This document shows, one piece after another, positions 1,850-16,350 of a stretch of 16,372 nucleotides of DNA; the first letter of the stretch is position 1; every line of letters begins with the position of its first letter. The notes under the pieces are model-generated. The model worked only from the letters and a program-made list of their open reading frames with translations, ran no database searches and was not told the origin of the DNA. The position numbers and the translations under genes were made by a program. Source of the stretch: Stenotrophomonas sp. (lineage in GTDB: Bacteria > Pseudomonadota > Gammaproteobacteria > Xanthomonadales > Xanthomonadaceae); the NCBI GenBank assembly GCA_003484865.1, contig DMZT01000061.1, positions 1-16,372 of the forward strand, in the 5' to 3' direction.

Positions 1850-1879
1850 TGTATCACCCGGTGTAACACCCGTGATACA
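1850..1879. promoter_or_regulatory. Putative enhancer-binding protein site (three TGTAWCA heptamers)
   Basis: GTATCAC (1851-1857) and GTGATAC (1872-1878) form a perfect 7-base inverted repeat, and GGTGT-A-ACACC (1860-1870) sits between them. Read as heptamers, TGTATCA (1850), TGTAACA (1862) and the reverse complement of TGTATCA (1873) are spaced 12 and 11 bases, close to one helical turn. The cluster lies about 170-200 bases upstream of the predicted sigma54 start, a normal distance for a sigma54 activator. The protein that binds is unknown. Confidence 0.55.
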
Positions 1880-1952
1880 CCCGCACCCCGCTTGACTCTC
1901 AGCGCAACGCCGTCCATCGCCAAACCTATTCATACGCACAAACGCTAACGCC

Positions 1953-1963
1953 GCTGTAACAGC
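1953..1963. promoter_or_regulatory. Promoter-proximal palindrome with TGTAACA core
   Basis: GCTGT-A-ACAGC is a perfect 5+1+5 palindrome with the same TGTAACA core as the upstream cluster (GGTGTAACACC at 1860-1870). It lies about 90 bases before the predicted start of transcription. Recurrence of the core in one promoter region suggests a second site for the same regulator. Confidence 0.45.
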
Positions 1964-2023
1964 AATGTTGCGTGCGATTAACCCGCGCCGCAGGAAAACC
2001 CCGGAAACACGGCCATTGGGAAC

Positions 2024-2040
2024 TTGGCACGAATGCTGCT
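2024..2040 (+). promoter_or_regulatory. Sigma54 (RpoN) -24/-12 promoter of the fap-like operon
   Basis: The sequence TTGGCACGAATGCTGCT has the -24 GG at 2026-2027 and the -12 GC at 2038-2039, exactly ten bases apart, and a complete TTGGCACG -24 box. Transcription should start near 2051, giving a leader of about 20 bases before the ATG at 2072. The TTG at 2024 that can open the reading frame is part of this promoter and is not a start codon. Confidence 0.88.
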
Positions 2041-2060
2041 CCAACCCTCCGCATGTAATC

Positions 2061-2066
2061 GGGAGG
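2061..2066 (+). promoter_or_regulatory. Ribosome binding site of the first fap-like gene
   Basis: GGGAGG lies five bases before the ATG at 2072. With the sigma54 promoter just upstream, it fixes 2072 as the start and excludes the TTG at 2024. Confidence 0.8.
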
Positions 2067-2071
2067 TCGCC

Positions 2072-2602
2072 ATGGACAGCGTTGCCGCACACCGCACACG
2101 ACACACCACACTCTGGCTGCTCGCCGCCGCACTCATCCTGCCGGCCGCCGCCAACGCCTCCGGCGCACGCCAGGGCGTCAAAGCACAACCCGGCGAAATC
2201 GTCCTCCTGCGTGACGTCTCCGCACGGCCTGCGTACCGTCCTGCGCCCCCCGGCATGGCGCTTATCGCAGACCCCTCACCGCGCCGCGAAATCGGCCATG
2301 CCCTCGGCACCTCCACCGGCATGGATGAACTCAGCGATGACGATTACGCCTCGCTGGGCTCCAACACCGGCGCCGGCATTCCCCGCAACGCCACCACCAT
2401 CGAACGCGTCACCGGCCATACGGTCAACGGCACGCTCGGCAAAGTGACCGACAGCGGCATGCTCTCCAGCGGCCAGTTCAGCAACACCATCGGCGGCCCC
2501 ATGGGCGCCGTCGGCAACGCCACCCGCGGCATTGGCGACCAGGTGCGTGGCGCACTCGCCCAGTTCCCGCTCGGCCAGCCTGCGGGCGGGCCCGGCAAAT
2601 GA
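2072..2602 (+). CDS. Small secreted protein, first gene of the fap-like operon (FapA position)
   Basis: A 176-residue protein with an N-terminal signal peptide (hydrophobic LWLLAAALILPAAANA after an Arg-rich start, cleavage near residues 29-31). The mature part is Pro/Gly/Ser-rich, has no cysteine and looks largely disordered. A middle section reads GEIVLLRDVSARPAYRPAPP, followed by an acidic stretch MDELSDDDYASLGS and a Gly/Asn/Thr-rich tail. In Pseudomonas the first gene of the operon, fapA, encodes a periplasmic protein of similar size that affects FapB/FapC fibre composition. I place this gene in that role only by position, size and secretion, because I cannot see clear residue similarity. 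Its stop overlaps the next start (ATGA at 2599-2602), so the two are translationally coupled. Confidence 0.85.
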   Translation: MDSVAAHRTRHTTLWLLAAALILPAAANASGARQGVKAQPGEIVLLRDVSARPAYRPAPPGMALIADPSPRREIGHALGTSTGMDELSDDDYASLGSNTGAGIPRNATTIERVTGHTVNGTLGKVTDSGMLSSGQFSNTIGGPMGAVGNATRGIGDQVRGALAQFPLGQPAGGPGK

Positions 2603-3237
2603 ACACCGTCCTGCGCATGGCACTGTTGACCAGCCTGGTGCTGGCTCCCTGGGCTGCACACGCCCAGCAGGGCAACGACTACGCCGCGATGCTCTCCTAT
2701 CTCAACCAGAGCCGCATCGACGGCCGCACCCTGGCCGGCGCCGATGGCGCCATCACCGTCAACATGGCTGCCGGTGACCTGAACCAGCAGGCCAACCTGA
2801 TGGGCATCGCCAACGGCCGCAACGCCCATATCCAGGTGGATGCACGCCAGCAGCAGTCCAACAACGTCAGCCTCGGCGACACCGCCATGGACGCCAGCGC
2901 CACGCTCGGTGGCCAGGCACTGAACGGCGCCAGTGGCGTCGCATCGATCAACCAGGCCAGCGGCAATGGCAACGCGACGCTCAACGTCGTCACCGCCACG
3001 CTGGCGCAACAGGGCATACGCGAAACGAACGACGAGGCTTTGGCCGCGTCGGGCGCACTCGCGTCAGCAGGGGGGCAGGGGGCCGTCAACAGCGGTCGGT
3101 CGGCCGGAACTCGCAGGGTGGCGGTCGAAGCCTCCGCGCTGCAGGGATTCGACGGCGTCCTGCAACTCAATCAGATCGCGGGATCCGGCAACGCCACCGC
3201 AAACCAACTGAGCATTTCGGTGCAGTCCACCCCGTGA
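2599..3237 (+). CDS. fapB: FapB-like minor amyloid subunit / nucleator
   Basis: A 212-residue secreted protein: the signal peptide ends near AAHAQ (residues 19-23) and the mature part is rich in Gly, Ala, Asn and Gln with no cysteine. Two amyloid-type units are visible: VNMAAGDLNQQANLMGIANG in the first half and GASGVASINQASGNGNATLN in the second. A weaker one lies at the C-terminus (LQLNQIAGSGNATANQLS). These match the (A)xGxxNxQxN pattern of Fap fibre proteins. By order and size it corresponds to FapB, the minor fibre component thought to seed FapC. It overlaps the preceding gene by four bases and lies 44 bases before the major subunit gene. The symbol is by analogy. Confidence 0.8.
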   Translation: MNTVLRMALLTSLVLAPWAAHAQQGNDYAAMLSYLNQSRIDGRTLAGADGAITVNMAAGDLNQQANLMGIANGRNAHIQVDARQQQSNNVSLGDTAMDASATLGGQALNGASGVASINQASGNGNATLNVVTATLAQQGIRETNDEALAASGALASAGGQGAVNSGRSAGTRRVAVEASALQGFDGVLQLNQIAGSGNATANQLSISVQSTP

Positions 3238-3281
3238 GTAGTCACATCCACCCGATTGTCTGTGATGAGAGAGAGGGCACC

Positions 3282-4763
3282 ATGAACACCAACATGAAAC
3301 GGACCGTACTGGCCATCGCCGTCGCCGCTGCATCCGCCTCCGCCGGCGCCAATGGCTGGGGCAATGACCGCGACAACCAGAACCAGAGCGCCAACATCAA
3401 CCACCTGCACAACGTGGCTGAAACGCGCACCAACACCAATACCGATACCAACACCGAAACCAATACCACCACCAACACCGATACCGATTCGCGCACCTGG
3501 AACCGGACCTGGAACAACACCCGCAACAACAACAGCACCACCAACACCACCATCAACGACAACGTGACGAGCAACACCAACGTCACCAGCAACCGCGACG
3601 TGACCAGCAACCGCAACGTCACCGAGAACGTCAGCAAGACCAGCAACATCCAGGCCGACGAACGCCAGGAAAAGAACAATCACGGCGTTGACGTGAACAT
3701 CGAAAAGGACCTGCGCCTGAGCTCGGACATCAGCTTCTCGGGTGATCCGGAAATCACCGGTTCGATCGACATCGATTCGGCCGCCATCGCCGTCATCGAC
3801 AACCGCCAGTCGGTCACCAACAATCTGGCCGGCAACACCCTGGTGACCAACAGCGCCTCGATCGCCGACGACGTCGGTGCCGATGCCTCGGGCAACCTGG
3901 GCTTCAACGTCGCCGCCGGTGACAACAACGCCCAGGACAATGCGGCGTCGCTGTCCGCGGCCGATGCGTCCTTCAGCTTCGGCATGGCCGATGCGGAAGT
4001 CTTCGTCAACCAGTTCGGCGGTGGAAATACCACCCTCAACTCCGGCGTGACCAACGCCGCGGGCCTGGGTGGCAATGCCTTCAGCGGCGCGTCCGGCAAC
4101 ATCGGTGCCAACGTCGCCTCGGGCAACAACAACGAGCAGAAGAACGCGCTCGCCGCCTCGGTCGCCACCAGCGCCTATGCGACCTCGAGCATCAGCTCCA
4201 ACCAGGTGTCCTCCGGCAACACCGTCAGCAACGCCGGCTACCTGCAGTCGATGACCGACACCGTGGACGTGAACCTGAGTGGTCGCGTTGCCGGTGCCAC
4301 ATTGGCCGTGGGTGCGGGCCGTTACAGCGGCACGGGTAGTGCCTACCAGAAAGACAACTACTACCTGGATACCTGGAGCGGCGCGCTGGATCACCCGAGC
4401 GGCAGCGAAACCGGTCATATCGACATGGATAGCGATATCCAGAATGCCACCGCCAACCCGAATCGTCCGGGCGTGGGCGGCATCGCGTTCGATACCGATG
4501 AGCGCGGCACCAGCCAGTTCGTTGAACTGGGCGTGGCCGATCTCTACGCGAGCCTGAGCGGCACCGTCTCCACCACCCGTTGGGTGAACGTGGATGCGAC
4601 CAACACCGCGGCGCTGTCCGGCAGTGCGTTCTCCGGCGCCTCCGGCAACATCGGGGTGAACGTGGCCTCCGGTACCGGCAACCTGCAGGCCAACAGTCTG
4701 GCCCTGGCGGTTGCGCAGCCCTCCACCGGCGGCGGTGGCGGTGGCGGCGGTCCGGAACAGTAA
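3282..4763 (+). CDS. fapC: FapC-like major amyloid fibre subunit, Asn/Thr-rich
   Basis: A 493-residue secreted protein. A signal peptide (residues 1 to about 24) is followed by an Asn/Thr region (48-122) of TNTDTNTET-type dyads and four VTSNxN-type hexads (95-118). Three Fap-type repeats begin near residues 204 (GNLGFNVAAGDNNAQDN), 272 (GNIGANVASGNNNEQKN) and 455 (GNIGVNVASGTGNLQAN). The two later ones are preceded by FSGAS. The tail is a Gly8 run ending PEQ. Repeats 2 and 3 are separated by about 180 residues, including an aromatic, non-repetitive stretch of about 90 residues. There is no cysteine, whereas Pseudomonas FapC is described with a C-terminal CxxC. Predicted role: extracellular biofilm amyloid. 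The ATG at 3282 follows GAGAGAGGG; the upstream GTG at 3234 would spoil the signal peptide. Family assignment is by repeats and operon context. Confidence 0.87.
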   Translation: MNTNMKRTVLAIAVAAASASAGANGWGNDRDNQNQSANINHLHNVAETRTNTNTDTNTETNTTTNTDTDSRTWNRTWNNTRNNNSTTNTTINDNVTSNTNVTSNRDVTSNRNVTENVSKTSNIQADERQEKNNHGVDVNIEKDLRLSSDISFSGDPEITGSIDIDSAAIAVIDNRQSVTNNLAGNTLVTNSASIADDVGADASGNLGFNVAAGDNNAQDNAASLSAADASFSFGMADAEVFVNQFGGGNTTLNSGVTNAAGLGGNAFSGASGNIGANVASGNNNEQKNALAASVATSAYATSSISSNQVSSGNTVSNAGYLQSMTDTVDVNLSGRVAGATLAVGAGRYSGTGSAYQKDNYYLDTWSGALDHPSGSETGHIDMDSDIQNATANPNRPGVGGIAFDTDERGTSQFVELGVADLYASLSGTVSTTRWVNVDATNTAALSGSAFSGASGNIGVNVASGTGNLQANSLALAVAQPSTGGGGGGGGPEQ

Positions 4764-4805
4764 GGTTGTCCGTTTTCGCAAGCAGTACGCGTTGAGCGCA
4801 ACAAA

Positions 4806-4874
4806 CCCGGTCATCCGCCAATGACCGGGCTCCCCGGGAGCCCCTGTCCCTTCTCCCCCTTGGGGCAGGGGCTC
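4806..4874 (+). other. Cluster of hairpins between fapC and fapD
   Basis: Three inverted repeats lie in the 132-base gap. CCCGGTCAT (4806-4814) pairs with ATGACCGGG (4821-4829), a perfect 9-base stem with a 6-base loop. CTCCC/GGGAG lies at 4830-4840. GAGCCCCTG (4838-4846) pairs with CAGGGGCTC (4866-4874), with further CCC/GGG pairing inside. No T-run follows, so a classical terminator is unlikely. A role in mRNA 3' protection, processing or partial termination is inference. Confidence 0.75.
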
Positions 4875-4895
4875 CTTCCTGAGCCGGAGTACTAC

Positions 4896-5606
4896 ATGTC
4901 CAGTCGTATGCGCACGTGGATGCTGGTGTGGGCCTTGTCGGTGCTGATGATGCCGATGGGCATCGTGCGTGCCGGCGACGTCGGCTTCAGTGGTGTGCTG
5001 CCCAACGGGGCGGTCCTCACCCAGCGCGTGGAAAGCATGCAGGAACGGCGCTTCCGCAATGTCGTACGGCAACACACCGATTACAGCTGTGGCGCAGCTG
5101 CCCTGGCCACGATCCTGCGCTACGCCTACCACCTGGAGGCCGATGAGAGCACGGTGATCGAAGGGATGATGGGGGTCTCGGATCCACAACTGGTCCACCA
5201 GCGCGGTTTCTCGCTGCTGGACATCAAGCGTTACGTCGAATCGATGGGCATGCGTGGGCGCGGCTACCGCGTCAATGAAGAGCGCCTGCGCTCACTGCGC
5301 GTGCCCGGGCTGGTGCTGATGGATGTGCGGGGCTTCCGCCACTTCGTGGTCCTCAAACAGGTCCGTGGCGATCTGGTGGATGTGGCCGACCCGATTCTGG
5401 GCAACCGCAGCATTCCCGTCAGCGAATTTCTCCAGGCGTGGCCGTCGCGCGCCGTGTTTGTCGTGATCGGCAGTGACTTCGATCGCAACACGGCGTTGCT
5501 GCAGCCCGGTGAACGGCCGAGTGCCCGTTCGCTGTACGCCAGGCAGGGGCCGATCACCGATGCGGAACTGGTCGATTTCGGATTCACCCATGCCGATCTG
5601 TTTTAA
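4896..5606 (+). CDS. fapD: FapD-like C39-family cysteine protease
   Basis: A 236-residue protein with a hydrophobic N-terminal segment (about 7-25) that serves as signal peptide or anchor, so the enzyme should act in the periplasm. The C39 peptidase core is clear: Gln59 and Cys65 in QHTDYSCGAAALATIL, His149 in GFRHFVVL and Asp165 in DVADP form the expected oxyanion Gln plus Cys-His-Asp triad. C39 domains usually sit in ABC exporters and cut double-glycine leaders; a stand-alone C39 protein is characteristic of the fap operon, where FapD is needed for fibre export or processing. The ATG at 4896 is chosen because GGAG lies six bases upstream and it directly precedes the signal sequence; the frame opens earlier only inside the hairpin cluster. 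The stop runs into the ribosome binding site of the next gene (TAAGGAGG). Confidence 0.9.
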   Translation: MSSRMRTWMLVWALSVLMMPMGIVRAGDVGFSGVLPNGAVLTQRVESMQERRFRNVVRQHTDYSCGAAALATILRYAYHLEADESTVIEGMMGVSDPQLVHQRGFSLLDIKRYVESMGMRGRGYRVNEERLRSLRVPGLVLMDVRGFRHFVVLKQVRGDLVDVADPILGNRSIPVSEFLQAWPSRAVFVVIGSDFDRNTALLQPGERPSARSLYARQGPITDAELVDFGFTHADLF

Positions 5607-5615
5607 GGAGGCACC

Positions 5616-6380
5616 ATGAACATCGCAACCTGGACGCCCGGCATCGTGTTGCTCGCCCTGCTGGGCATTGCGCCGGCGCATGCCGACGAGAGCCGGCCCG
5701 GCAAGGGATTGAGCGAAATCCCCGATCCGGAATTGAACCTCATGCGGGGCCGCTACACCGTCGGTGGCAACACCGTGGCGTGGTTCGGCGTCACCATGGT
5801 CTCGCAATGGCAGACCGCCGGCGGGCAGTCGGCACAGAGCGCGCTGAAGCTGGGCATGGACTTCAGCCACGGCGGCAGCACACCGAAGATCAGCTTCGCA
5901 CCGAGCGTGAGTGTGACCGCTGCCGATGCGCCGCTGCCGGTGACACCGGGGCGCAGTGTGGACTCCAGTGGCCTGCAGAACGTGGCTGGCCTGAGTCAGA
6001 GCATCCAGGTGGCCGGCGACGGCAACCTGGCCAGCAACGCCACCCAGCTGAGCGTGCGCGATGGCGTGGCACCCACGCCCACCGGCGAAGGGGTGAACCT
6101 GGCCAGCGTGCAGCAGGGCGGTGTCAGTGCGCTGGCCCAGCTGGAAGGCAACACGGCCAAGGTGCAGTTGCAGATCGAGGGTGTCGGTGCGGTCCAGCAA
6201 TGGATCCGCAATGGCAGCGTCGGCCAGAGCATCGCGCTGGGCAGTGATGGACAGTCGGTCACCAACCGGCTGCAGATCGACCTCGTGAGGCAATCGCTGG
6301 CCAACAACGTTCCGCTCAACCAGAACGTGGCGCAGGCGATGACGCTGGTACGCGGCGTAGGCATGGGGCCGGGCCAGTGA
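5616..6380 (+). CDS. fapE: FapE-like secreted protein
   Basis: A 254-residue secreted protein with a signal peptide ending near AHADE (residue 24). The conserved-looking N-terminal part PDPELNLMRGRYTVGGNTVAWFG is followed by a region predicted to be rich in beta strand. Toward the C-terminus there are amyloid-like elements such as QVAGDGNLASNATQLS. No cysteine is present. By order, size and the GDGNxASN pattern it corresponds to FapE, a minor extracellular component in Pseudomonas whose exact role is not settled. A strong ribosome binding site, GGAGG, lies seven bases before the ATG and overlaps the end of the protease gene, so translation of the two is probably linked. The symbol is by analogy. 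Confidence 0.78.
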   Translation: MNIATWTPGIVLLALLGIAPAHADESRPGKGLSEIPDPELNLMRGRYTVGGNTVAWFGVTMVSQWQTAGGQSAQSALKLGMDFSHGGSTPKISFAPSVSVTAADAPLPVTPGRSVDSSGLQNVAGLSQSIQVAGDGNLASNATQLSVRDGVAPTPTGEGVNLASVQQGGVSALAQLEGNTAKVQLQIEGVGAVQQWIRNGSVGQSIALGSDGQSVTNRLQIDLVRQSLANNVPLNQNVAQAMTLVRGVGMGPGQ

Positions 6381-6428
6381 TCCATCGGCCCGGCAGGGGG
6401 AGCGACAACACAACAGTGGGCCAAGGCA

Positions 6429-7745
6429 ATGCACACGATGATCCGCGCAACACCGCTGGCGCTGGCGGCGCTGGCACTCATGGCGGCTGCGTCCGCCCAG
6501 GCACAGGCACAACAGCCGGCGCCCGATGACGCAGCCGACGTCAAGGCCTTGATGGCGCAGCTGGAAAGCCTGAAAGCCAATTACGCGCAGGAAGTACGGC
6601 GCCTGCGCGAGCTGGACATGCAGGTGCAGGCCATGCAGGCGCGGCTGACTGGCAAGACCGCGCCCGTCGCCGGTGCCGCACCTCCACCTCAACAGGCCTT
6701 GCCGGCTGGCACGCCTGCAGCGCCGGCCAGCGCCGACGGTTACGCCAGCTCGGCGGCCGAAGCGCAGCAGGCCAAACAGGAATCGCGGCGCAGCGTGGAT
6801 GACGTCAAACAACAGCAGGCTGCGCTGTTCAGTCGCCGCTTCACGATCGAAAACAGCCTGTCCTACGCGCGCTATGACCGCAAGCAGCTCAGCCTCAACG
6901 GCTTCCTGGCGCTGGACGCGATCTTCCTGGGCAACATCGCCATCGAGAACGTCGAGTCGGACACGCTGACCTACAACCTGGCCGCGCGCTGGGGTGTCAG
7001 TCCGCGCCTTACCTTGAACCTGGATGTGCCCTACCTGGCTCGCAAGACCGTGTTCCAGAAGGGCGGTGCCGGCGGATCTGCCGCGGCCATCGCGCAGGAA
7101 GAGACGACCGGCAACGGCATCGGCGATGTTGGCGTGAGCGCCAACTACCGGTTGTTCGCCGAGCGGGGGCGGCTGCCGGAAACGGTGTTGACCGTGGGGG
7201 CGACCGCGCCGACCGGGCGTGCGCCGTATGGGCTGGACTGGAAGGTGCTCGAGCGCGATGACGATGACTTCATCCGCTTCGCCGTGCCCGAGCAGCAGCC
7301 CACCGGCAACGGGGTGTGGCAGGCCAACGTCGGGCTTTCCGCAGTGAAGACCGCCGATCCGGCGATCCTGTTCGCCAACATCGGTTACATCCATTCCTTC
7401 CCGCGCAGCTTCGATGACATCGACGCCAACCCGGATACCACCAACCCGGGGGATGTGAAGCTGGGCGGCTCGTACTACTTCGGTGCCGGCGTGGCGTTCG
7501 CCTTCAACGAGCGCACCAGCCTGAGCATCTCCTTCAGCGACAAGCTGAGCGCGCGAGCGTCCACGCGCTACAAGAACGGCCAGTGGCTGAAGGTGATCGG
7601 CAGTGACGCCAACGCGGGCACGCTGAACCTGGGCATCACCTACGCCCTCAACCAGAAGACCACCTTGGTGAGCCTGCTGGGTATCGGCCTGACCCCGGAT
7701 GCACCGGACTTCACTCTGGCGTTCAAGGTGCCGTACAGCTTGTAG
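6429..7745 (+). CDS. fapF: FapF-like outer-membrane amyloid secretion channel
   Basis: A 438-residue protein: signal peptide (1 to about 27), a heptad-like helix (about 35-74, DVKALMAQLESLKANYAQEV onward), an Ala/Pro linker (77-102), a second Gln/Lys-rich helix (about 105-135), then a beta-barrel domain to the end with alternating hydrophobic strands. This is the architecture of FapF, which forms a trimeric outer-membrane pore with an N-terminal coiled coil and a helical plug and exports the fibre subunits. The last residues are KVPYSL, so the usual C-terminal Phe of barrel proteins is replaced by Leu. The start is uncertain: the ATG at 6429 has AAGG only two bases away, while the in-frame ATG at 6438 has it eleven bases away; both give a working signal peptide. 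Last gene of the operon. Confidence 0.88.
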   Translation: MHTMIRATPLALAALALMAAASAQAQAQQPAPDDAADVKALMAQLESLKANYAQEVRRLRELDMQVQAMQARLTGKTAPVAGAAPPPQQALPAGTPAAPASADGYASSAAEAQQAKQESRRSVDDVKQQQAALFSRRFTIENSLSYARYDRKQLSLNGFLALDAIFLGNIAIENVESDTLTYNLAARWGVSPRLTLNLDVPYLARKTVFQKGGAGGSAAAIAQEETTGNGIGDVGVSANYRLFAERGRLPETVLTVGATAPTGRAPYGLDWKVLERDDDDFIRFAVPEQQPTGNGVWQANVGLSAVKTADPAILFANIGYIHSFPRSFDDIDANPDTTNPGDVKLGGSYYFGAGVAFAFNERTSLSISFSDKLSARASTRYKNGQWLKVIGSDANAGTLNLGITYALNQKTTLVSLLGIGLTPDAPDFTLAFKVPYSL

Positions 7746-7780: not shown

Positions 7781-9142
7781 TCAGCGCAGTTCGGGAAGCG
7801 CCAGCTGGTGCTTGCGGCACAGCCGGTAAACGGTCACCCGCGAGACCTGCATGTGGCGGGCGCAGGCGGTGATGTTGAAGTCGTTCTGGCGCAGGGCATG
7901 CAGCAGGGTTTCGCGTTCGGCGACCTGCTTTGCGCCGTGCAGGCCGTGCGCGGTGATGGGCAGCAGCGGCTGGCTCAACTCCAGATCCGCGGCGGTGATC
8001 AGTTCGGCATCGCTGACGATCGCTGCACGCTGCACCCGGTTGAGCAGCTCGCGCACATTGCCCGGCCAGGCATGCCGCTGAAGCGCGGTGGCCGCCGCGG
8101 TGGACAGTGGCTTGCCAGTGTCCAGGAAGCGTTCGGCCAGCGGCAGGATGTCGCCGGGGCGGTCGGCCAAGGCCGGCAGCGCCAGCTCGACAGTGTTGAG
8201 GCGGTAGTACAGATCCTCGCGGAACTGGCCATCGCGGATCATCGTGGGCAGATCGGCGTTGGTCGCGCTGATGACGCGGACCTTCACCTGCCGCTCGCGG
8301 TTGGAACCCAGCCGTTCGAAACGGCCGGTTTCCAGCACGCGCAGCAGTTTCATCTGTCCACTGGCAGAGAGATTGCCGATCTCATCCAGGAACAGGGTGC
8401 CGCCATCGGCGGCCTCGAACTTGCCTTCGCGTGCCTTGTTGGCACCGGTGTAGGCACCGGCCTCGGCACCGAACAATTCCGCCTCGATCAGCTCGGACGG
8501 AATCGCGCCGCAGTTGAGCGCGACGAACGGCCCCTTGGCCACCAGCGAGTTGGCCTGGATGATCTCGGCGATCTTCTCCTTGCCCGCGCCGTTGGGGCCG
8601 GTGATCAGCACCGGCAGTGCCGAGCGTGCCACCTGGCAGGCCAGGTTGACCACGCGCTCGCTGGCCGGATCGGCCACTACGGCACCGCGCAGATCGTAGC
8701 GGGCCTCCAGCGCCGAGCGATCGCGTTGCTCGCGGTCGCGGCGGCGGTCCAGTTCGCGGCGGGTTTCGGAGAGCTCCAGCAGGTTGTTGACCGTGATCAG
8801 CAGCTTGCGGTCGTCCCATGGCTTGGCCAGGTAGTCCGCCGCGCCCGCCTTGACCAGATCGACCGCGCTGCTCAGATGTGTCCAGGCGGTCAACAGGATC
8901 ACCGGCAGGTCCGGATGACGTGCACGGATCTGCTGGAACAGGGCTTCGCCTTCTTCGCCGGAGGTGGTGTCCTCGGTGAAGTTCATGTCCTGGATCACCA
9001 GGTCCACCGGCTGTTGTTCCAGCAGCGCCAGCCCCTGCTCGGGCGAGAGCGCGTGCAGGGTATCGATGTCGTGCAGCGAGAACAGCACGTCGAGTGCGGT
9101 GCCGACGCTGGCGTTGTCGTCAATGATCAGGATCGAGGGCAT
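7781..9142 (-). CDS. Sigma54-dependent NtrC-family response regulator
   Basis: A 453-residue cytoplasmic transcription activator with three domains. The receiver (1-120) has acidic residues 8-9, phospho-acceptor Asp52, Thr85 and Lys107. The AAA+ domain (about 153-385) has Walker A GPNGAGKE (182-189), the sigma54-contacting loop GAYTGA (229-234, a common Tyr form of GAFTGA), Walker B GGTLFLDE (247-254) and FREDLYYRLN. The Fis-type helix-turn-helix is at 421-444. Phosphorylation by a sensor kinase should drive ATP-dependent opening of sigma54 promoters. The ATG at 9142 is chosen because MPSILIIDD is the normal receiver start; an extension to 9310 is unstructured and runs into the PDZ gene. It follows the PDZ gene by 79 bases, is convergent with fapF, and has no kinase next to it. 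The likely target is the sigma54 promoter at the head of its own operon. Confidence 0.95.
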   Translation of the reverse strand: MPSILIIDDNASVGTALDVLFSLHDIDTLHALSPEQGLALLEQQPVDLVIQDMNFTEDTTSGEEGEALFQQIRARHPDLPVILLTAWTHLSSAVDLVKAGAADYLAKPWDDRKLLITVNNLLELSETRRELDRRRDREQRDRSALEARYDLRGAVVADPASERVVNLACQVARSALPVLITGPNGAGKEKIAEIIQANSLVAKGPFVALNCGAIPSELIEAELFGAEAGAYTGANKAREGKFEAADGGTLFLDEIGNLSASGQMKLLRVLETGRFERLGSNRERQVKVRVISATNADLPTMIRDGQFREDLYYRLNTVELALPALADRPGDILPLAERFLDTGKPLSTAAATALQRHAWPGNVRELLNRVQRAAIVSDAELITAADLELSQPLLPITAHGLHGAKQVAERETLLHALRQNDFNITACARHMQVSRVTVYRLCRKHQLALPELR

Positions 9143-9183
9143 GCGGCAACGTAGGACCGGAAGTGGAATCAAGAGTACCGGAG

Positions 9184-9212
9184 CGCCGGGCCAAGGGGCA
9201 GATGGCCCGGCG
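9184..9212 (-). other. Intra-operon hairpin between PDZ gene and response regulator
   Basis: CGCCGGGCCA (9184-9193) and TGGCCCGGCG (9203-9212) form a perfect 10-base stem with a 9-base loop, starting ten bases after the PDZ stop codon. No T-run follows on the minus strand. It could lower read-through into the regulator gene or stabilise the upstream message; the effect is inference. Confidence 0.7.
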
Positions 9213-9221
9213 TGGCAGGCC

Positions 9222-9650
9222 TCAGCCGCCGGCGCGTGGCGGCGTTGCGGGCTGGGGGATGGGCGGTGTCTCGACCGCCAGCACCTCGCTCCAGGCGGCG
9301 GTGTCGACATCCACGGTCACCTGGTCGCCCTTGCGCAGCACGACGACGGGCACCCGGGTGGCCTTGTTGCCAACCAGCGCATGGGTGAGGTCGGCCATGC
9401 GCCGGACGGGCTGGCCATCCACGCGCAGGATCCGGTCGCCGCTGCGCACACCGAAGTAGCTGCTCGGTTCGGTGGTGGTGACGCGCACGATGCCATCCCG
9501 GGCATCGACCACCAGATGGTGGCCGGCGTCACGCCACTCCAGGCGTGCGGTATCGGTCTGGGTGGCGGCCAGCGCAGGTGCGCTGGCCAGCAGGAGGGAC
9601 AACAACAGGGTCGTGATCCTGGTCTTGGTCTTGGTATTGGTCTTGCGCAT
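9222..9650 (-). CDS. Small secreted PDZ-domain protein
   Basis: A 142-residue protein with a Lys/Arg-rich start, a hydrophobic signal segment (TTLLLSLLLASAPALA) and a single PDZ domain (about residues 45-110). The domain is visible as SSYFGVRSGDRILRVDGQPV, followed by a second strand pair and VVVLRKGDQVTVDVD. A Pro-rich tail follows. There is no protease domain, so it would be a periplasmic binding or scaffold protein. The ATG at 9650 has GGAG eight bases upstream and begins one base after the upstream permease stop, which implies coupled translation. A stand-alone PDZ protein in an FtsX-type ABC operon suggests it helps recognise or hold a protein or peptide ligand of the transporter; that role is inference. 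Confidence 0.85.
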   Translation of the reverse strand: MRKTNTKTKTRITTLLLSLLLASAPALAATQTDTARLEWRDAGHHLVVDARDGIVRVTTTEPSSYFGVRSGDRILRVDGQPVRRMADLTHALVGNKATRVPVVVLRKGDQVTVDVDTAAWSEVLAVETPPIPQPATPPRAGG

Positions 9651-9651
9651 T

Positions 9652-10872
9652 TCAGGCACTCCGGGTGGCAACGGCAGGGGGGACGGCGGCGGCGCGACGG
9701 GCCGGGCCGAAGACAGCGATCTGGCCCAGCAGCCACAGCAGTACCGCGCCGATCGGCAGGTAACTGATGGGCATGCGTGGCAGCTCGTAGTTGTTCATCA
9801 GCCACAGATTGATCGTGTAGGCCATCAACATGCCCAACACGATCCCAACCGTGGCCAACAGGAAGTTCTCGGTCTGGAAGTAGCGCAGGATCTGGCTGCG
9901 GGTCGCGCCCAGCGCCCGGCGGATGCCGATCTGCTTGGTGCGCTGCTGCACCCAGAAGCTGGCCAGACCAACGATGCCCAGTGCCGTCACCACCAGCAGG
10001 GCAACGCACACGGTGATCAGCAGGCCGACCATGGCGCGGTCATTGGCGAAGTACTTGTTGCGCTGTTCCTCGTAGGTGGATTTGCCGCGGATCAGCCGGC
10101 TCGAATCGACACGTTCCAGTGCCGTCACTGCTGCCTTGATCACCTCGTCCCGACGCGCGGGATCGGTGACACGGATCAGGTAGAAGCCTTCGTCGTAGGT
10201 CGCCCGCAACGGCAGCATGATCGAATACTGGATGTCGCCGCCAACCGGGTTCGGGCGGGCCAGCACCTTGACGATGCCGACGATGCGCAGCGGCATGGAA
10301 CCGCTGTAGACCGTCTTGCCCAAGGCATCACCGCCGGGGAACATCTTGTCGGCAATCGCCTTGGTGACGATGATCGCCGAGCCCGTTTTTTCGGCGTTCT
10401 CGTCGGTCAGGGCATCCGCTGCGTCGCGGTATTCGTCGCTCTGGAAATCACGGCCGGCGATCAGCTCCACGCCCAGTGTCTCCAGCGCGCCTTCGCGGGC
10501 GAAGTACTGGGAGGTGCTCAGCGTCGAGCGTTCCTGGTTGGGGGTCAGCCCCAGGCCCGTGTTCCAGGAGCTGTTGCGGAACGGAATCTGGTTCAACGTC
10601 ACGGCACTCTTGACGCCCGGAATGGCCTGCAACGCCGCCAGGTCTTCGCGGGTGCGCGCGGCCGCATTGACCTGGGTGCCGATGCCGCCCAGGCGGACTT
10701 CGATCAGTTCGGTCTCGGCGATGCCGCTGGGCTGGTTGATCTTCTCGATGCGCTGCCCGATCAGGAACAGCGCATTGCAGACGATGGCGCAGGTCAGGGC
10801 GATCTCGAGCACGATCAGCGACGCGGCGGTTTTATGCCGGCGCAGGGTGGAGAGGATGGGACGGATATCCAT
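9652..10872 (-). CDS. ABC transporter permease, FtsX/MacB type (second permease)
   Basis: A 406-residue inner-membrane protein with the MacB-like layout: one N-terminal membrane helix (about 18-40, ASLIVLEIALTCAIVCNALF), a large periplasmic domain (about 45-280), then three C-terminal helices. The conserved cytoplasmic loop reads QQRTKQIGIRRALGATRSQI. Such permeases do not move substrates through the membrane like classical ABC pumps; they transmit ATP-driven motion to the periplasm (type VII, mechanotransmission). It should form a heterodimer with the permease encoded 16 bases upstream, driven by the ATPase two genes up. GGAG lies six bases before the ATG. The C-terminal residues are Ala/Pro-rich after the last helix. 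The substrate is unknown. Confidence 0.93.
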   Translation of the reverse strand: MDIRPILSTLRRHKTAASLIVLEIALTCAIVCNALFLIGQRIEKINQPSGIAETELIEVRLGGIGTQVNAAARTREDLAALQAIPGVKSAVTLNQIPFRNSSWNTGLGLTPNQERSTLSTSQYFAREGALETLGVELIAGRDFQSDEYRDAADALTDENAEKTGSAIIVTKAIADKMFPGGDALGKTVYSGSMPLRIVGIVKVLARPNPVGGDIQYSIMLPLRATYDEGFYLIRVTDPARRDEVIKAAVTALERVDSSRLIRGKSTYEEQRNKYFANDRAMVGLLITVCVALLVVTALGIVGLASFWVQQRTKQIGIRRALGATRSQILRYFQTENFLLATVGIVLGMLMAYTINLWLMNNYELPRMPISYLPIGAVLLWLLGQIAVFGPARRAAAVPPAVATRSA

Positions 10873-10888
10873 GGTGTGCTCCGGATCC

Positions 10889-12193
10889 TTACTGCGATTT
10901 GAGTTGGATGGCGGGCGCGACCTGCATGGCGCGCAGCGCCGGCAGGAAACCGGCCAACAGGCTGGCGACCAAGGTCAGCGCGAAGGTCATCAGCAGCATC
11001 TGCCCATCCAGCGTGGCCAGCTTGGCGTAGTCCACCGGTTGCTGGCGCACCGCGTACAGTCCCAGCATCGCGAGCACCAGGCCGAGCAGGCCGCCGGCCA
11101 GGCCGACCGTACCGGCCTCGATGAGCGACTGCAGGAAGATCTGGCCGCGGCTGGCACCCAGCGCCCGGCGCACGCCGATCTCGCCGCTGCGGCGCAGGAA
11201 CTTGGCCAGCAGCAGGCCCACGGTATTGATCAGGCAGACCAGCAGGAAGCCCATCGCCAACCACAGCTGCAGGCGCACGTCACCGGGGACCACCTTCTTG
11301 TAGTCCAGCCACTCCATGACATTGCGCAGACGGACGTTGTTGGGACGCTCGAAGCGGCCGGCCGCACGCTGCTGGTCGGAGTAGTTCTCCAGGTAGCGGC
11401 GGTACTCCGCAGCTTGCCCGGCGTTCTCCAGCTCCACCCAGTACTGGATCCAGGTGCAGCTGGCGGTCGGGCCGGTCGGATCGGGTTCGTTGCGGCGGCC
11501 GAAGCAGTCCATGCTGCCGCTGCGGTCGAACTTCAGCTCGATGGCCGTGGTGAAGGGAACGAACACATCTTCGCTGTCGCCATAGCGACCGGTGTTGAGA
11601 TCGTAGAAGTGCGGGTTGGGGTGCCACTCGTCCAGAACGCCCACCACGGTCATCGTGTTGCCATTGATGCGCAGTGACTTGCCGACGCTGTTGGCGCCAT
11701 CGAACAGCTTCTGGTTGAGTGTCTTCGTGATCACCGCGACCCTGCCGCGGCCCTCGTCATCGGATTCCTTCCAGCCCTGGCCGTACTGGAACGGGGTATC
11801 GAACATCGGGAAGAAGTCGCCCGAGGTGTAGCGAGAATCCGTGACGAACGGACGCAGCGTGCTGCTGTCCGGCTCGATGGTGACGCCGCCACCGGTCATC
11901 ATCGCCTGGCGCTTGGCATGTTTCTCGCTCAGCAGTCTGGTGGCATCGAAGCGGGTCAACTGGTCGGCCGGTTCTTCGCCAGGCTGATAGCCAAGCGCCG
12001 ACTGTGGATCAATCTGCACGCTGAAGAGCCGGTCGCTCTTCTGCGGAATCGGATCACCGGACAGCACGTGGAACACGGTCAGCGTGGTCATCGACGCGCC
12101 GATGCCCAGCGCGATGGCGATCACCATCAGCGCGGTCAGCACCTTGTTGCGCCGGAAGCTGCGCAGGGCCAGTCGGAAGTAGTAAGCGATCAT
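10889..12193 (-). CDS. ABC transporter permease, FtsX/MacB type (first permease)
   Basis: A 434-residue inner-membrane protein with one N-terminal helix (about 18-40, ALMVIAIALGIGASMTTLTV), a large periplasmic MacB-like domain and three C-terminal helices. The FtsX-family loop reads LRRSGEIGVRRALGASRGQI. The periplasmic domain has two cysteines about 17 residues apart (in SMDCFGRR and TASCTWIQYW), which may form a disulphide that the sister permease lacks. It starts eight bases after the ATPase stop and ends 16 bases before the second permease, so the subunits are made together. The C-terminal AIQLKSQ resembles endings of MacB-like permeases. The pairing of two different permeases with a separate ATPase differs from the fused MacB of MacAB-TolC. 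Confidence 0.93.
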   Translation of the reverse strand: MIAYYFRLALRSFRRNKVLTALMVIAIALGIGASMTTLTVFHVLSGDPIPQKSDRLFSVQIDPQSALGYQPGEEPADQLTRFDATRLLSEKHAKRQAMMTGGGVTIEPDSSTLRPFVTDSRYTSGDFFPMFDTPFQYGQGWKESDDEGRGRVAVITKTLNQKLFDGANSVGKSLRINGNTMTVVGVLDEWHPNPHFYDLNTGRYGDSEDVFVPFTTAIELKFDRSGSMDCFGRRNEPDPTGPTASCTWIQYWVELENAGQAAEYRRYLENYSDQQRAAGRFERPNNVRLRNVMEWLDYKKVVPGDVRLQLWLAMGFLLVCLINTVGLLLAKFLRRSGEIGVRRALGASRGQIFLQSLIEAGTVGLAGGLLGLVLAMLGLYAVRQQPVDYAKLATLDGQMLLMTFALTLVASLLAGFLPALRAMQVAPAIQLKSQ

Positions 12194-12201
12194 GGCCGGC
12201 C

Positions 12202-12927
12202 TCAGTCGTTGGCGATGGCAGCGGCAACCGCGGGGCGCGGCGTGGAAAGCACCGGGTCGCGCAGCAGGTCGGTGACCTGGCCGTCGACGATGTGCACGTT
12301 GCGCTTGGCACGGGCGGCCAATTCGGGATCGTGGGTCACCATCACGATCGTGGTGCCCTTGGCATTGATTTCTTCCAGCAGCTCCATGACGCCACGGGCC
12401 ATCTGGCTGTCCAGGTTGCCGGTCGGTTCATCGGCCAGCAGCAGGCGCGGGCTGCCCGCCAGCGCCCGCGCGATCGCGGCGCGCTGCTGCTGACCACCGG
12501 AGAGTTCGGCCGGGTAATGCTTCATGCGCGAGCCCAGGCCCACCTGGGCCAGCGCGTGCTCGATGCGCTCCTTGCGCTCGGCAGCGGGCATGCCGCGGTA
12601 GCGCAGCGGCACATCGACGTTGTCGAACAGGTTCAGATCGGAGATCAGGTTGAAGCCCTGGAAGATGAAGCCGATCTTCTGGTTGCGCAGGCGGCTGCGC
12701 GCGTCATCGCCGAGCTGGCTGACGTCCTGGCCATCGAGCAGGTAGGTGCCGCTGGTGAAGGTCTCCAGCAGGCCGGCGATGTTGAGGAAGGTGGTCTTGC
12801 CCGAACCGGACGGACCGGTCACGGCGACGAACTCGCCTTCGCGGACATGCAGGTCCAGCGACCGCAGGGCGTGGGTTTCCACCTGTTCGGTGCGGAAGAC
12901 TTTGGCGACCGAGCGCATTTCAAGCAT
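12202..12927 (-). CDS. ABC transporter ATPase, MacB/LolD type
   Basis: A 241-residue cytoplasmic ATPase with all required motifs: Walker A GPSGSGKT (38-45), Q-loop Gln90 in GFIFQGFNLI, signature LSGGQQQR (142-149), Walker B RLLLADEPTGNLD (161-173) and switch His199 in MVTHD. The sequence belongs to the MacB/LolD/FtsE clade that works with FtsX-type permeases. The ATG at 12927 is chosen because MLEMRSVAKVF is the usual family start and AAAGGA lies about eight bases upstream; the longer frame from 12996 would overlap the end of the membrane fusion gene. It lies 43 bases after the fusion protein gene and eight before the first permease. Confidence 0.95.
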   Translation of the reverse strand: MLEMRSVAKVFRTEQVETHALRSLDLHVREGEFVAVTGPSGSGKTTFLNIAGLLETFTSGTYLLDGQDVSQLGDDARSRLRNQKIGFIFQGFNLISDLNLFDNVDVPLRYRGMPAAERKERIEHALAQVGLGSRMKHYPAELSGGQQQRAAIARALAGSPRLLLADEPTGNLDSQMARGVMELLEEINAKGTTIVMVTHDPELAARAKRNVHIVDGQVTDLLRDPVLSTPRPAVAAAIAND

Positions 12928-12970
12928 GGCTGTTTTCCTTTGAAAGTCGAGAGGATCGAAAGGGACTGAA

Positions 12971-14236
12971 TCAGTTGATGGAGACGCGCTCGGCATCGCC
13001 GAACAGATCGCTGCCGGACACCACGACGCGATCGCCGGGCTGCAGGCCAGAGAGGATTTCCACTTCGCCCAGGCTGCTCACACCGAGCTTGACCGGGCGA
13101 CGGACCGCACTGCTGCCGTCCATGACGTAGGCGTAGCCGTTGCCCTGTTCGACGAACGGGCCGCGTTCGATCTTCAGGGCATTGCGGCGGGTATCGAGCA
13201 GCACGCGCGCCTGCATCCGCTGGCTCTGGCGCAGGCCCTGCGGTTGCTTGTCGGCAAAGCGGATGCGGGCGTTGACCTCACCGGCGACCACTTCCGGGGA
13301 CACCGCGGAGATCTCACCGGCGAACTGGCCGCTGCCGCCGGTCAGCTGCGCAGGCATGCCGATCGTCAGCTCGCGGGCGAAACTCTCCGGCACCTTGATC
13401 TCGATCTCGAAGCGCGACAGGTCGACCACGCCCAGGATTGGCGCATTGGCGACCACGTTGGTGTGCTGGGTCGCCTGCACCTGGCCGACCTGGCCATCGA
13501 ACGGCGCACGCAGCGTGAGGGCGTCGACCTGGCGCTCGACCTCGGTCACCACCGCACGCTGGCGGTCGGCGAGCAGGCGCTTGTTGCGCGCATCGAGGTC
13601 GGCGCCCTGGGCCTTGAGCAGGGCGTCCTTGCGGGCATGTTCGAGCTGGATGTCGCTCTTCTTGACCGTGTCTTCGGCCTTGGCGACATCGACCTGCGGC
13701 ACCGCGCCCCCATCGAAGCCACGCTTGTAGCGTTCCAGATCGCGCACGGCCGCCTGGCGTTCGATCACGGCCTGGTCAGTGTCTTTCTGTGCCGTGGCGC
13801 GGGCCAGGGTGGCATCCAGGGTCGCGCGGCTCGCCTCGGCCTGCAGACCGGCCAGCGTGGCCTGTTCCTGGGCCAGCTTGCTGCGCAGCTCCGGGCTGTC
13901 GATCACGGCCAGTTCCTGGCCCTGCTTGACCACGTCACCGGCCACCACCTTCAGGTTCACGTTGCCGGCGGAGATCGCATACAGCACCGGGTTGTTGGCC
14001 GCGATCACACGGCCATCCGCGGCGATGTCGCGGACCATGTCGCCGCGGGTGACCTCGGCCACCCGGACACGGGCGCTGTCGAACGAGCGGCTGGCACCGA
14101 GCCAGGCGCGGGCGGCGAAGCCGATCGCCAGCAGCACGACCAAGGCGGCGACCGCCGGCCACAGCCAGCGCTTCCACGGGGCGGGCGCGGCATGCGAGGA
14201 AAGGGTCTGGTCCTGGGCGGAAGTGTCGCGGATCAT
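12971..14236 (-). CDS. Membrane fusion protein (HlyD/MacA-type periplasmic adaptor)
   Basis: A 421-residue periplasmic adaptor anchored by one membrane helix (about 25-43) after a cytoplasmic tail. The first half of the lipoyl/barrel-sandwich domain is near 60-110 (ISAGNVNLKVVAGDVVKQGQ). A long helical hairpin with heptad character follows (about 110-240), then the second lipoyl half (LTLRAPFDGQVGQVQATQHT), a beta-barrel and a membrane-proximal domain (GLQPGDRVVVSGSDLF). It should link the FtsX-type permeases to an outer-membrane TolC-like channel, which is not encoded in the window. It is the first gene of the operon, about 23 bases after the predicted sigma54 start. The ribosome binding site before the ATG is weak (only GAG). 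Confidence 0.94.
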   Translation of the reverse strand: MIRDTSAQDQTLSSHAAPAPWKRWLWPAVAALVVLLAIGFAARAWLGASRSFDSARVRVAEVTRGDMVRDIAADGRVIAANNPVLYAISAGNVNLKVVAGDVVKQGQELAVIDSPELRSKLAQEQATLAGLQAEASRATLDATLARATAQKDTDQAVIERQAAVRDLERYKRGFDGGAVPQVDVAKAEDTVKKSDIQLEHARKDALLKAQGADLDARNKRLLADRQRAVVTEVERQVDALTLRAPFDGQVGQVQATQHTNVVANAPILGVVDLSRFEIEIKVPESFARELTIGMPAQLTGGSGQFAGEISAVSPEVVAGEVNARIRFADKQPQGLRQSQRMQARVLLDTRRNALKIERGPFVEQGNGYAYVMDGSSAVRRPVKLGVSSLGEVEILSGLQPGDRVVVSGSDLFGDAERVSIN

Positions 14237-14268
14237 CGGGCTCGTTCGCGGTTGGGTTGCGGAGTACC

Positions 14269-14286
14269 AAGCAGACGCCGTGCCAA
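14269..14286 (-). promoter_or_regulatory. Sigma54 (RpoN) promoter of the ABC transporter operon
   Basis: On the minus strand the sequence TTGGCACGGCGTCTGCTT has the -24 GG at 14284-14283 and the -12 GC at 14272-14271, exactly ten bases apart. It is as good a match as the fap promoter. Transcription should begin near 14259, giving a leader of about 23 bases before the ATG at 14236. The response regulator at the end of the operon is the expected activator. Confidence 0.9.
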
Positions 14287-14301
14287 GTTTTGGCCCTTTG
14301 A

Positions 14302-14314
14302 AAACAATGGCTTG
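14302..14314. promoter_or_regulatory. IHF-like binding site between activator sites and sigma54 promoter
   Basis: AAACAATGGCTTG matches the IHF consensus WATCAANNNNTTR with one mismatch (T to A at the third base). It lies between the sigma54 promoter and the upstream repeats, about 45-55 bases before the predicted start, where IHF typically bends DNA for sigma54 activation. The evidence is short and positional. Confidence 0.4.
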
Positions 14315-14327
14315 CGAATCTCGTCGC

Positions 14328-14361
14328 GTGTCCGCGTGTCCGCGGACACCGGACCGGACAC
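14328..14361. promoter_or_regulatory. Putative upstream activator site: GTGTCC / GGACAC array
   Basis: Two direct copies of GTGTCCGC (14328-14335, 14336-14343) face two copies of the inverse half-site, GGACAC (14344-14349) and CGGACAC (14355-14361). The inner pair forms a perfect 14-base palindrome (14336-14349). The array lies about 70-100 bases upstream of the predicted sigma54 start, the usual place for an NtrC-type dimer pair. The response regulator at 7781-9142 is the likely ligand. The array also lies about 80-110 bases before the glmS start codon. Confidence 0.65.
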
Positions 14362-14439
14362 TTTCGTTAAGCCGACAGCGCCCAAGCCGCCGGGGCGGCC
14401 ACGCTAGAATGCGAGGCTAACCAGCAGGGATCTGAATCT

Positions 14440-16281
14440 ATGTGCGGCATTGTGGGAGCGATCGCGCATCGCGACGTGGTACCGGTACTCATCGAAGGCC
14501 TGAAGCGACTGGAATACCGGGGCTACGACTCGTCGGGCATTGCCGTGATCGACACCACTGCCGCCGAAGCTGACGTCCGCCGTGTGCGCCGCACCGGCCG
14601 CGTGGCCGAGATGGAGAAGGCCGCCACGAGCGAAGGCTTCCAGTCGCTGCTCGGGATCGGCCACACCCGCTGGGCCACCCACGGTGGCGTGACCGAGGCC
14701 AATGCGCACCCGCACATCAGTCATGGCGTGGCGCTGGTCCACAACGGCATCATCGAGAACCATGAAGAACAGCGCGAGAAGCTGCGCGCGCTGGGCTATA
14801 CCTTCGAGTCGCAGACCGACACCGAAGTGATCGCGCACCTGATGCACCATCACCTCAAGGAAGGCGACAGCCTGCTGTCGGCGCTGCAGCGCACGGTCAA
14901 GGAACTGACCGGAGCCTACGCACTGGCGGTGATGAGCCGTGCCGAGCCGGATCACTTCGTGTGCGCGCGCATGGGCTGCCCGCTGCTGGTCGGCGTGGGC
15001 GAGGGCGAGAACTTCGTCGCCTCCGACGTCTCGGCGATCCTCCAGGCCACCCGCTCGGTGATCTTCCTGGAAGAGGGCGATACCGCCGATATCCGCCGCG
15101 ATGGCGTGCAGGTGTATGACGAGCACAACCAGCCGATCGTGCGTGACGTGCACCTGTCCGATGTGTCGCTGGCCTCGCTGGAGCTGGGCCCGTACCGCCA
15201 CTTCATGCAGAAGGAAATCCACGAGCAGCCGCGCGCGCTGGGCGACACCATCGAAGCGGCGATCGATGCCGGCGGTTTCCCGGCCACCCTGTTCGGCAAG
15301 AATGCCGAGGGCGTTCTGTCGGATATCGAAGGCGTGCAGATTCTTGCCTGCGGTACCAGCTATTACGCCGGGCTGACCGCGCGCTACTGGATCGAGGCAA
15401 TCGCCGGGCTGCCGTGCAGCGTCGAGATCGCCAGCGAATACCGCTATCGCGCGGCCTACGCGAATCCCAAGCACCTGATCGTCACCATCTCCCAGTCCGG
15501 CGAAACGCTGGATACGATGGAGGCGCTCAAGTACGCCAAGTCGCTCGGCCACCTGCACACGCTCTCGATCTGCAACGTTCCCGAGAGCGCGATCCCGCGT
15601 GCCAGTGAACTGGTCTGCTACACCCGTGCCGGTGCCGAGATCGGTGTCGCGTCGACCAAGGCCTTCACTACCCAGCTGGCCGCGCTGTTCCAGCTCACCG
15701 TGGTGCTGGGCAAGCTGCATGGCCGCATCGATGCCGCCCAGGAAGCGGACTACCTGGAACAGCTGCGCTTCCTGCCGGGCAGCGTGCAGCATGCGCTGAA
15801 CATGGAGCCGCAGATCGCCGCGTGGGCCGAGCGCTTCGCGCGCAGGAACAGCGCGTTGTTCCTGGGCCGTGGGCTGCATTACCCGATCGCGCTGGAAGGC
15901 GCGCTCAAGCTCAAGGAAATCTCGTACATCCACGCCGAGGCCTATCCGGCCGGCGAGCTCAAGCATGGCCCGCTGGCGTTGGTGGATGAAGAGATGCCGG
16001 TGGTGGTGATCGCCCCGAACGACAGCCTGCTGGAAAAGGTCAAATCCAACATGCAGGAAGTGCGTGCCCGCGGCGGTGAGCTGTTCGTGTTCGCCGACCA
16101 GGACAGCAACTTCGTCGAGTCCGAAGGCGTGCATGTGATCCGGACGCCGCGCCATGCCGGTGTGCTGAGCCCGATCGTGCATACGATTCCCGTGCAGCTG
16201 TTGGCCTATCACACCGCGCTGGCCCGCGGGACAGACGTGGACAAGCCGCGCAACCTGGCAAAGAGCGTGACGGTGGAGTGA
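14440..16281 (+). CDS. glmS: Glutamine--fructose-6-phosphate aminotransferase (isomerising)
   Basis: A 613-residue cytoplasmic enzyme (usual length 608-613) that makes glucosamine-6-phosphate from fructose-6-phosphate and glutamine, the first step toward UDP-GlcNAc for peptidoglycan and lipopolysaccharide. The N-terminal class II glutaminase domain has the nucleophile Cys2 (MCGIVGA) plus GYDSSGIAV and HTRWATHG. Two SIS domains follow: ACGTSYYAG around residue 304, [18 protein letters not shown], and the second SIS with the [15 protein letters not shown] segment. The C-terminus [12 protein letters not shown] is the conserved ending that closes the active site. AGGGA lies nine bases before the ATG. 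The leader is short, and I see no glmS ribozyme or large leader structure. It is divergent from the ABC operon and is followed by a strong terminator, so it is probably transcribed alone. Confidence 0.98.
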
Positions 16282-16316
16282 TGTGTCCGCCGCCGAGGCG
16301 GCGCTGACGCGTATCG

Positions 16317-16346
16317 AGGGTGGTCCTGCGGGGCCACCCTTTTTTT
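16317..16346 (+). terminator. Rho-independent terminator after glmS
   Basis: AGGGTGGTCC (16317-16326) pairs with GGGCCACCCT (16331-16340), with one G-T pair and a TGCG loop, followed by a run of T up to 16346. A second GC-rich inverted repeat, CGCCGCC/GGCGGCG (16288-16303), lies just before it. Confidence 0.92.
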
Positions 16347-16350
16347 GTGC

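Follow-up and report, generated by a model that had tools for sequence, protein, structure and literature searches.

How complete is the functional amyloid (Fap) system outside Pseudomonas, the genus in which it is best studied, and what switches it on there? Both questions arise from contig DMZT01000061.1 of the Stenotrophomonas sp. assembly GCA_003484865.1, whose full 16,372 nucleotides are the window analyzed here (contig C494 of a 508-contig assembly that is 77.67% complete). A sequence-only reading had placed a six-gene Fap-like operon at positions 1850–7745 of what it took for a Xanthomonadaceae-type genome. The genome is indeed a Stenotrophomonas, of the S. rhizophila clade, and sequence comparison makes us highly confident that positions 2072–7745 encode a complete fapABCDEF operon, divergent from the Pseudomonas version. 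All six genes lie within the interval first proposed, but its start does not hold: the operon begins at 2072, and 1850–2071 is the promoter region.

The earlier reading also implied that a biofilm amyloid system outside its best-studied genus would be new. The system is confirmed as Fap, but fap is already known in Stenotrophomonas, and the window holds another, divergent member. Dueholm et al. (2013) described Fap proteins from the Xanthomonadales genera Rhodanobacter and Stenotrophomonas, and the parts of that paper available to us count S. maltophilia as one of the pathogens that bear fap and give fapABCDEF as its usual arrangement (PMC3792158). A 2018 review, likewise available in part, adds 25 genera with Fap and names S. 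maltophilia again (PMC6173800). The available portions of these two papers do not describe, for Stenotrophomonas, three features that we report below: a linked activator, a sigma-54 site and the N-terminal region of FapC.

A complete fapABCDEF operon

We assigned protein identity with NCBIfam profile models, taking the curated cut-off of each model, in bits, as reference; these models were needed because Pfam returned nothing useful for FapA, FapB, FapC and FapE. Each of the six proteins had its own Fap model as top NCBIfam match, in the expected order (Table 1). The profile search that the sequence-only reading had proposed as a check thus supports its claim of six consecutive plus-strand genes matching fapA to fapF, and the peptidase and channel show clear similarity to C39_FapD (expectation value, E, 2.4e-77) and FapF (4.4e-113).

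The genes form a single array, predicted to be co-transcribed. The same six genes occur in the same order in all 34 relatives' loci compared by tblastn (33 from Stenotrophomonas and one from another family in the order), which excludes chance; one of these, L041, yielded no start codon for either fapB or fapF. A further set of 80 named loci comprises the best 80 of 106 relatives kept from a FapF search, and 64 of them gave all six genes in order while 16 miss at least one. Nearly all carry titles of Stenotrophomonas, Pseudoxanthomonas, Luteimonas, Lysobacter, Xanthomonas or Lysobacteraceae. The two sets overlap (G013 and L085, for example, are by length the same contig) and are not independent. 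To the left of the operon, as within it, the contig is collinear with the relatives compared, and neither part is affected by a contig join to the right.

Peptidase and channel

FapD retains the residues of a C39 cysteine peptidase. Cys65, His149 and Asp165 are present in the window and invariant in 20 of 20 aligned FapD sequences, in agreement with the claim of a stand-alone C39 protease with an intact active site. An alternative fapD start, ATG 4821, is less likely than 4896 because 33 of 35 FapD, the window's included, are 230–236 residues long by the start choice of our script; the other two measure 240 and 259.

FapF combines a helical, coiled-coil-like N-terminal part with a beta-barrel, as predicted by model and sequence. 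Residues 118–436 match the FapF crystal structure (PDB 5o65) at E 3e-79. We also compared AlphaFold models of FapF and FapC with the PDB using Foldseek. The FapF model (mean predicted local distance difference test score, pLDDT, 73) places helices at 32–74 and 109–132 ahead of a C-terminal barrel, and its first PDB match was FapF (E 2.5e-28; template modeling score 0.90 on the target), ahead of a COG4313 channel. The predicted fold is thus that of the FapF crystal, as expected for the coiled-coil-plus-barrel channel first proposed. A trimeric state is predicted.

Repeats and variable regions of FapC

FapB and FapC are homologues with imperfect amyloid repeats, three of them in FapC. Both match their own models, and FapC also matches the solved FapC fibrils 9nqd and 9u4u by sequence (E 1e-11), which sustains the description of the two as amyloid-repeat subunits. 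FapC begins with a signal peptide, called by eye, followed by a hypervariable Asn/Thr-rich N-terminal region (residues ~25–121), a pre-R1 segment (122–165), the three repeats and a Gly-rich tail. Its AlphaFold model is poor (pLDDT 57, with residues 1–164 under 50).

Conservation along FapC is strikingly uneven. Across 48 sequences, repeats R1, R2 and R3 and linker L1 carry no indels and show mean pairwise identities of 0.73–0.84, linker L2 ranges from 105 to 171 residues, and the region after the signal peptide ranges from 2 to 202 residues with an identity of 0.31. The window's post-signal region is 27% Asn and 26% Thr, and short tandem repeats at 3428–3485 and 3513–3623 encode it. Window FapC has ~140 more residues before its first aligned repeat than the PDB FapC chain. 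The first repeat core lies at residue 203 in the window, versus 78–127 in 8 of 10 FapC from other families; in the remaining two (L168 and L172) the search pattern caught a later repeat. The 80 named loci yielded 78 FapC, and in the 71 of these where the pattern was found the first-repeat anchor falls between residues 70 and 273. We considered whether an N-terminal extension is exclusive to the family, an idea weakened by extensions, though shorter ones, in other families.

The available part of the 2018 review calls a CxxC motif conserved in FapC (PMC6173800), whereas neither window FapC nor any of the 78 named-locus FapC contains a cysteine or the motif. In one relative from a different family of the order (G056, L021), FapC has a single Cys. 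Just 3 of 10 other-family FapC, all from one genus, carry a C-terminal CxxC, and one more has a mid-chain CxxC; we therefore do not treat the motif as defining, and it is not universal in FapC as judged from these sequences. The converse idea, that a Cys-free FapC is special to the family, was weakened as well, since Cys-free FapC are common in other families.

Contig C55 of genome G462 (~26517–29512) has several FapC-model matches in a row within long frames, perhaps a many-repeat FapC-like protein.

A sigma-54 site and a linked activator

A site of the sigma-54 −24/−12 type lies upstream of fapA (Table 1). Scored against a sigma-54 consensus that we take to be the accepted one, sites with at least 12 of 14 specified positions precede 34 of 35 operons versus 5 of 700 shuffled regions. 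The single miss, L040, perhaps reflects a script-chosen start codon too far upstream; in L047 the site is 9 nt before the chosen start.

For P. fluorescens PF07, the available text reports an RpoN-type promoter for fapA and a convergent gene downstream of fapF that encodes the activator BrfA (PMC9207406), which a second source, also available in part, reports to sense or bind cyclic di-GMP (c-di-GMP; PMC13101488). In 79 of the 80 named loci, a sigma-54 activator gene, mostly of ~440–450 codons, is encoded beside fap on the other strand. It is downstream in 61 (54 by script and 7 just past the FapF match) and upstream in 18, which by title are S. maltophilia and close relatives. No linked activator was found in L158, whose contig ends soon after fapF.

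The association extends to other families. We took nine loci from 14 extra-family genomes with a FapC match, representing seven other families of the class, and an activator of the same kind adjoins fap in eight, in the same direction as fap; seven lie upstream (one cut by a contig end) and one downstream, and L200 has none. L200 (G518) yielded only fapB, fapC and fapD, and the 18 kb examined there held no activator; in both it and L201 (G496), fapC comes before fapB.

In a tree of 32 activators, a branch supported at 99/100 separates 24 fap-linked sequences from five linked to an ATP-binding cassette (ABC) transporter locus and three others. That tree drew on 20 of the 79 family activators, lost three of its seven outgroup loci (L197, L198 and L203) to a filter, and has long branches with only eight activators outside the fap-linked group. 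AAA+ and HTH_8 domains are present in all 18 linked activators examined (of 79), and Pfam finds a VpsR domain in 4 of 5 activators from other families.

By sequence features the linked activator appears to be of the BrfA/VpsR type, a likeness by description, domain and position. With PF07, as far as its available descriptions go, these loci share a sigma-54 promoter ahead of fapA, a neighboring gene for an enhancer-binding protein that is close in size to brfA (an open reading frame of 1,326 bp) and, in the 61 loci just mentioned, the convergent position of that gene just downstream of fapF (PMC9207406, PMC13101488). The upstream position in 18 loci differs, as does the window contig, which retains only the 3' end of the gene. 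This activator is a conserved regulator that the sequence-only reading did not mention. Its presence beside fap in relatives suggests c-di-GMP control as in P. fluorescens, and we infer by this analogy that such control extends beyond Pseudomonas.

A chimeric activator gene at a probable contig misjoin

The window itself contains no intact activator gene with a VpsR-type N-terminus. The open reading frame next to fapF, 7781–9142 (longest start 9310), is not of the BrfA type and begins instead with a REC domain from another locus. Up to residue ~358 it matches a REC-domain activator encoded in an ABC-transporter/glmS locus (L063; 85% across the full alignment), and from the WPGNVREL motif to its end it follows the fap-linked S. 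rhizophila activator. Along the DNA, the closer match passes from one gene to the other between the 50-nt bins 8001 and 8101. We had considered the adjacent REC-type activator as the fap regulator and dropped it once comparison with relatives revealed the chimera.

Two explanations can be offered for such a gene. Paralogues can recombine where they share an identical stretch, and the fused frame is open over 453 codons (7784–9142); a true fusion would join a REC domain to a BrfA-type DNA-binding end and could place fap under a two-component signal. We nevertheless consider a correct contig unlikely. The join falls at a 24-nt identity in an assembly of 508 contigs that is 77.67% complete. The same assembly carries the remainder of the ABC-linked activator on contig C308, which breaks off within that gene. 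The two activator loci are separate in all 6 relatives examined: what follows the switch on the right is found on a different contig in three, ~0.7–0.8 Mb away in G013 and G027, and 3.8 Mb away by coordinate in G019 (~0.7 Mb if its single contig is circular). Among the matches listed, best first, in 90 other genomes of the genus, not one spans the full 211-nt query that brackets the join. That the 5' half of the fap-linked activator is missing weighs neither way.

We conclude that the activator gene is probably chimeric through misassembly at the shared motif, so that fap and the sequence beyond 8067 are probably not true neighbors: 8068–16372 appears to be an ABC-transporter/HlyD/glmS block misjoined to the operon. 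Within this block, a small PDZ-domain gene (9225–9671, minus strand) sits between a permease and the activator; in G023 (L065) the stretch matching ~9229–9651 is replaced by ~45 nt.

Table 1. The fap operon and neighboring features of the window, with the evidence for each
Feature	Position	Strand	Evidence
Sigma-54 −24/−12 type promoter, TTGGCACGAATGCTGCT	2024..2040	+	48 nt upstream of the fapA ATG; 13/14 specified consensus positions
fapA, chaperone-like protein, 176 aa	2072..2602	+	NF058617 FapA, E 1.8e-9, 38.1 bits (cut-off 110)
fapB, minor amyloid-repeat subunit, putative nucleator, 212 aa	2599..3237	+	NF058557 FapB, E 1e-23, 83.9 bits (cut-off 190)
fapC, major amyloid subunit, 493 aa	3282..4763	+	NF058558 FapC, E 7.2e-50, 170.5 bits (cut-off 195)
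fapD, stand-alone C39 cysteine peptidase, 236 aa	4896..5606	+	NF058616 C39_FapD, E 2.4e-77, 259.2 bits (cut-off 330); Peptidase_C39, 5e-18
fapE, accessory fiber protein, 254 aa	5616..6380	+	NF058559, E 2.1e-23, 82.8 bits (cut-off 250)
fapF, outer-membrane amyloid channel, 438 aa	6429..7745	+	NF058560, E 4.4e-113, 378.2 bits (cut-off 700)
3' end of the fap-linked BrfA-type sigma-54 activator gene, up to the join	7781..8067	-	Matches the S. rhizophila L085 activator from the WPGNVREL motif to the stop
24-nt identical stretch joining two activator genes	8044..8067		Probable misassembly
5' part of the REC-domain activator of an ABC-transporter locus, elsewhere in relatives; not fap	8068..9142	-	

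Distribution

The FapF model matched 34 of 37 genomes of the same genus, the window's own included, and, across the family, 34 of 149 genomes at more than 320 bits and 54 of 149 at E 0.001. Among the best 80 relatives, FapF of S. rhizophila USBA GBX 843 (L085) is listed as 100% identical to that of the window. Among plasmid records, 18 with a FapF relative were recovered, each less than 60% identical to the query and aligned over less than 80% of it.

Other records stood out. Family genomes contain a second, weaker class of FapF-model matches (125–162 bits; e.g., G122, G196, G184 and G079), sometimes alongside a strong FapF and perhaps representing another FapF/FilC-like channel system. A record titled Bacillus subtilis (L093, JAHREJ010000021.1) carries a Stenotrophomonas-like fap locus with a 90% identical FapF and is probably mislabeled or contaminated. 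NZ_AP026896.1, a 4.9-Mb Aeromonas caviae 'plasmid' record with a FapF relative, is probably a chromosome filed as a plasmid.

Weighing the assignment

Several observations weigh against a working, c-di-GMP-controlled Fap system. All six proteins miss the curated NCBIfam cut-offs (Table 1) and by that rule would not be named Fap, and FapF falls below its cut-off in every genome searched (0 of 61 and 0 of 149 pass). The top Foldseek matches of the FapC model are FapC, but weak ones (E 6.7e-3, probability 0.57). A VpsR domain (Pfam, E 0.01) was found in 12 of the 18 linked activators examined. None of the open-access papers that we consulted gives expression, fiber or phenotype data for fap in Stenotrophomonas: the available part of an S. 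rhizophila matrix-proteomics paper, pursued as a lead, has FapA only in the title of a reference cited for another point (PMC11985002), and that of a study of c-di-GMP in S. maltophilia contains neither 'fap' nor 'amyloid' (PMC11404848). We treat the cut-offs as annotation thresholds and not as features of the system. Scores below them mark the proteins as divergent, as the sequence-only reading had judged them relative to Pseudomonas. One of six other FapC scanned, that of L112, which has a short N-terminus, passes (200 versus 195 bits).

Could the cluster be something else? Acinetobacter has a Fil pilus system that, like Fap, combines a C39 peptidase with an outer-membrane channel, and FapD and FapF do match the FilB (4.4e-33) and FilC (7.5e-21) models. 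These scores are far below those of the Fap models (114.8 versus 259.2 bits for FapD, 74.9 versus 378.2 for FapF), FapA, FapB, FapC and FapE match no Fil model, and the repeats match FapC of known fiber structure. We rejected a Fil assignment on scores and regard it as extremely improbable. A decayed or unexpressed fap remnant is scarcely more credible: the silence of the literature on expression would suit it, as would the three same-genus genomes with no FapF-model match (G003, G012 and G020), but the six frames are open, the catalytic residues are intact, R1, L1, R2 and R3 stay free of indels across the 48 FapC, and the promoter site is kept. The cluster is best read as an intact Fap operon.

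A working model

With Pseudomonas Fap the window shares the six genes, their order, the C39 catalytic residues, the FapF fold and the three FapC repeats; it differs in scores below the NCBIfam cut-offs and in the long, hypervariable Asn/Thr-rich N-terminal region of FapC. The Fap of Stenotrophomonas (S. maltophilia in PMC6173800) and Rhodanobacter, in the available accounts, is the same system, and the former is of the same genus (PMC3792158). Gene identity and order, active-site residues, channel fold, a promoter-like site and, in relatives, a linked activator are our observations. Onto these we map secretion, processing, nucleation, fiber formation and c-di-GMP control as they would follow by analogy with Pseudomonas.

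Sigma-54 RNA polymerase would start fap transcription from the −24/−12 site, switched on by the BrfA/VpsR-type enhancer-binding protein encoded beside the operon, probably in response to c-di-GMP as for P. fluorescens BrfA. The Fap proteins would reach the periplasm via Sec. FapA would keep FapC soluble, and FapD would process a Fap partner in a step needed for export. FapF, as a trimeric plugged barrel, would pass FapB, FapC and FapE to the surface, where FapB may nucleate FapC and the three FapC repeats may stack into cross-beta fibers in the biofilm matrix.

Implications

The S. rhizophila clade carries a complete and intact amyloid-fiber operon. Where it is named in public sources, the major subunit appears as 'adhesin' or 'hypothetical protein' (among the 120 relatives listed of 930), which makes the system easy to miss. 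The chimeric neighbor, for its part, warns against reading fap regulation from contig C494. The hypervariable FapC N-terminus offers a natural comparison for the role of the non-core part of a functional amyloid, and from the conserved adjacent activator and sigma-54 site follows a prediction open to testing: in this family, c-di-GMP would switch Fap on.

We tentatively join these threads in one proposal, which we think somewhat more apt to fail than to hold: Lysobacteraceae FapC has two parts, indel-free repeats and a variable brush, and the activator is a conserved seventh fap component across Gammaproteobacteria. The Asn/Thr-rich brush would change length by short repeats, project from the fiber and determine what the fiber adheres to. 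If the proposal is true, the adjacent BrfA/VpsR-type activator makes fap c-di-GMP-gated far beyond Pseudomonas.

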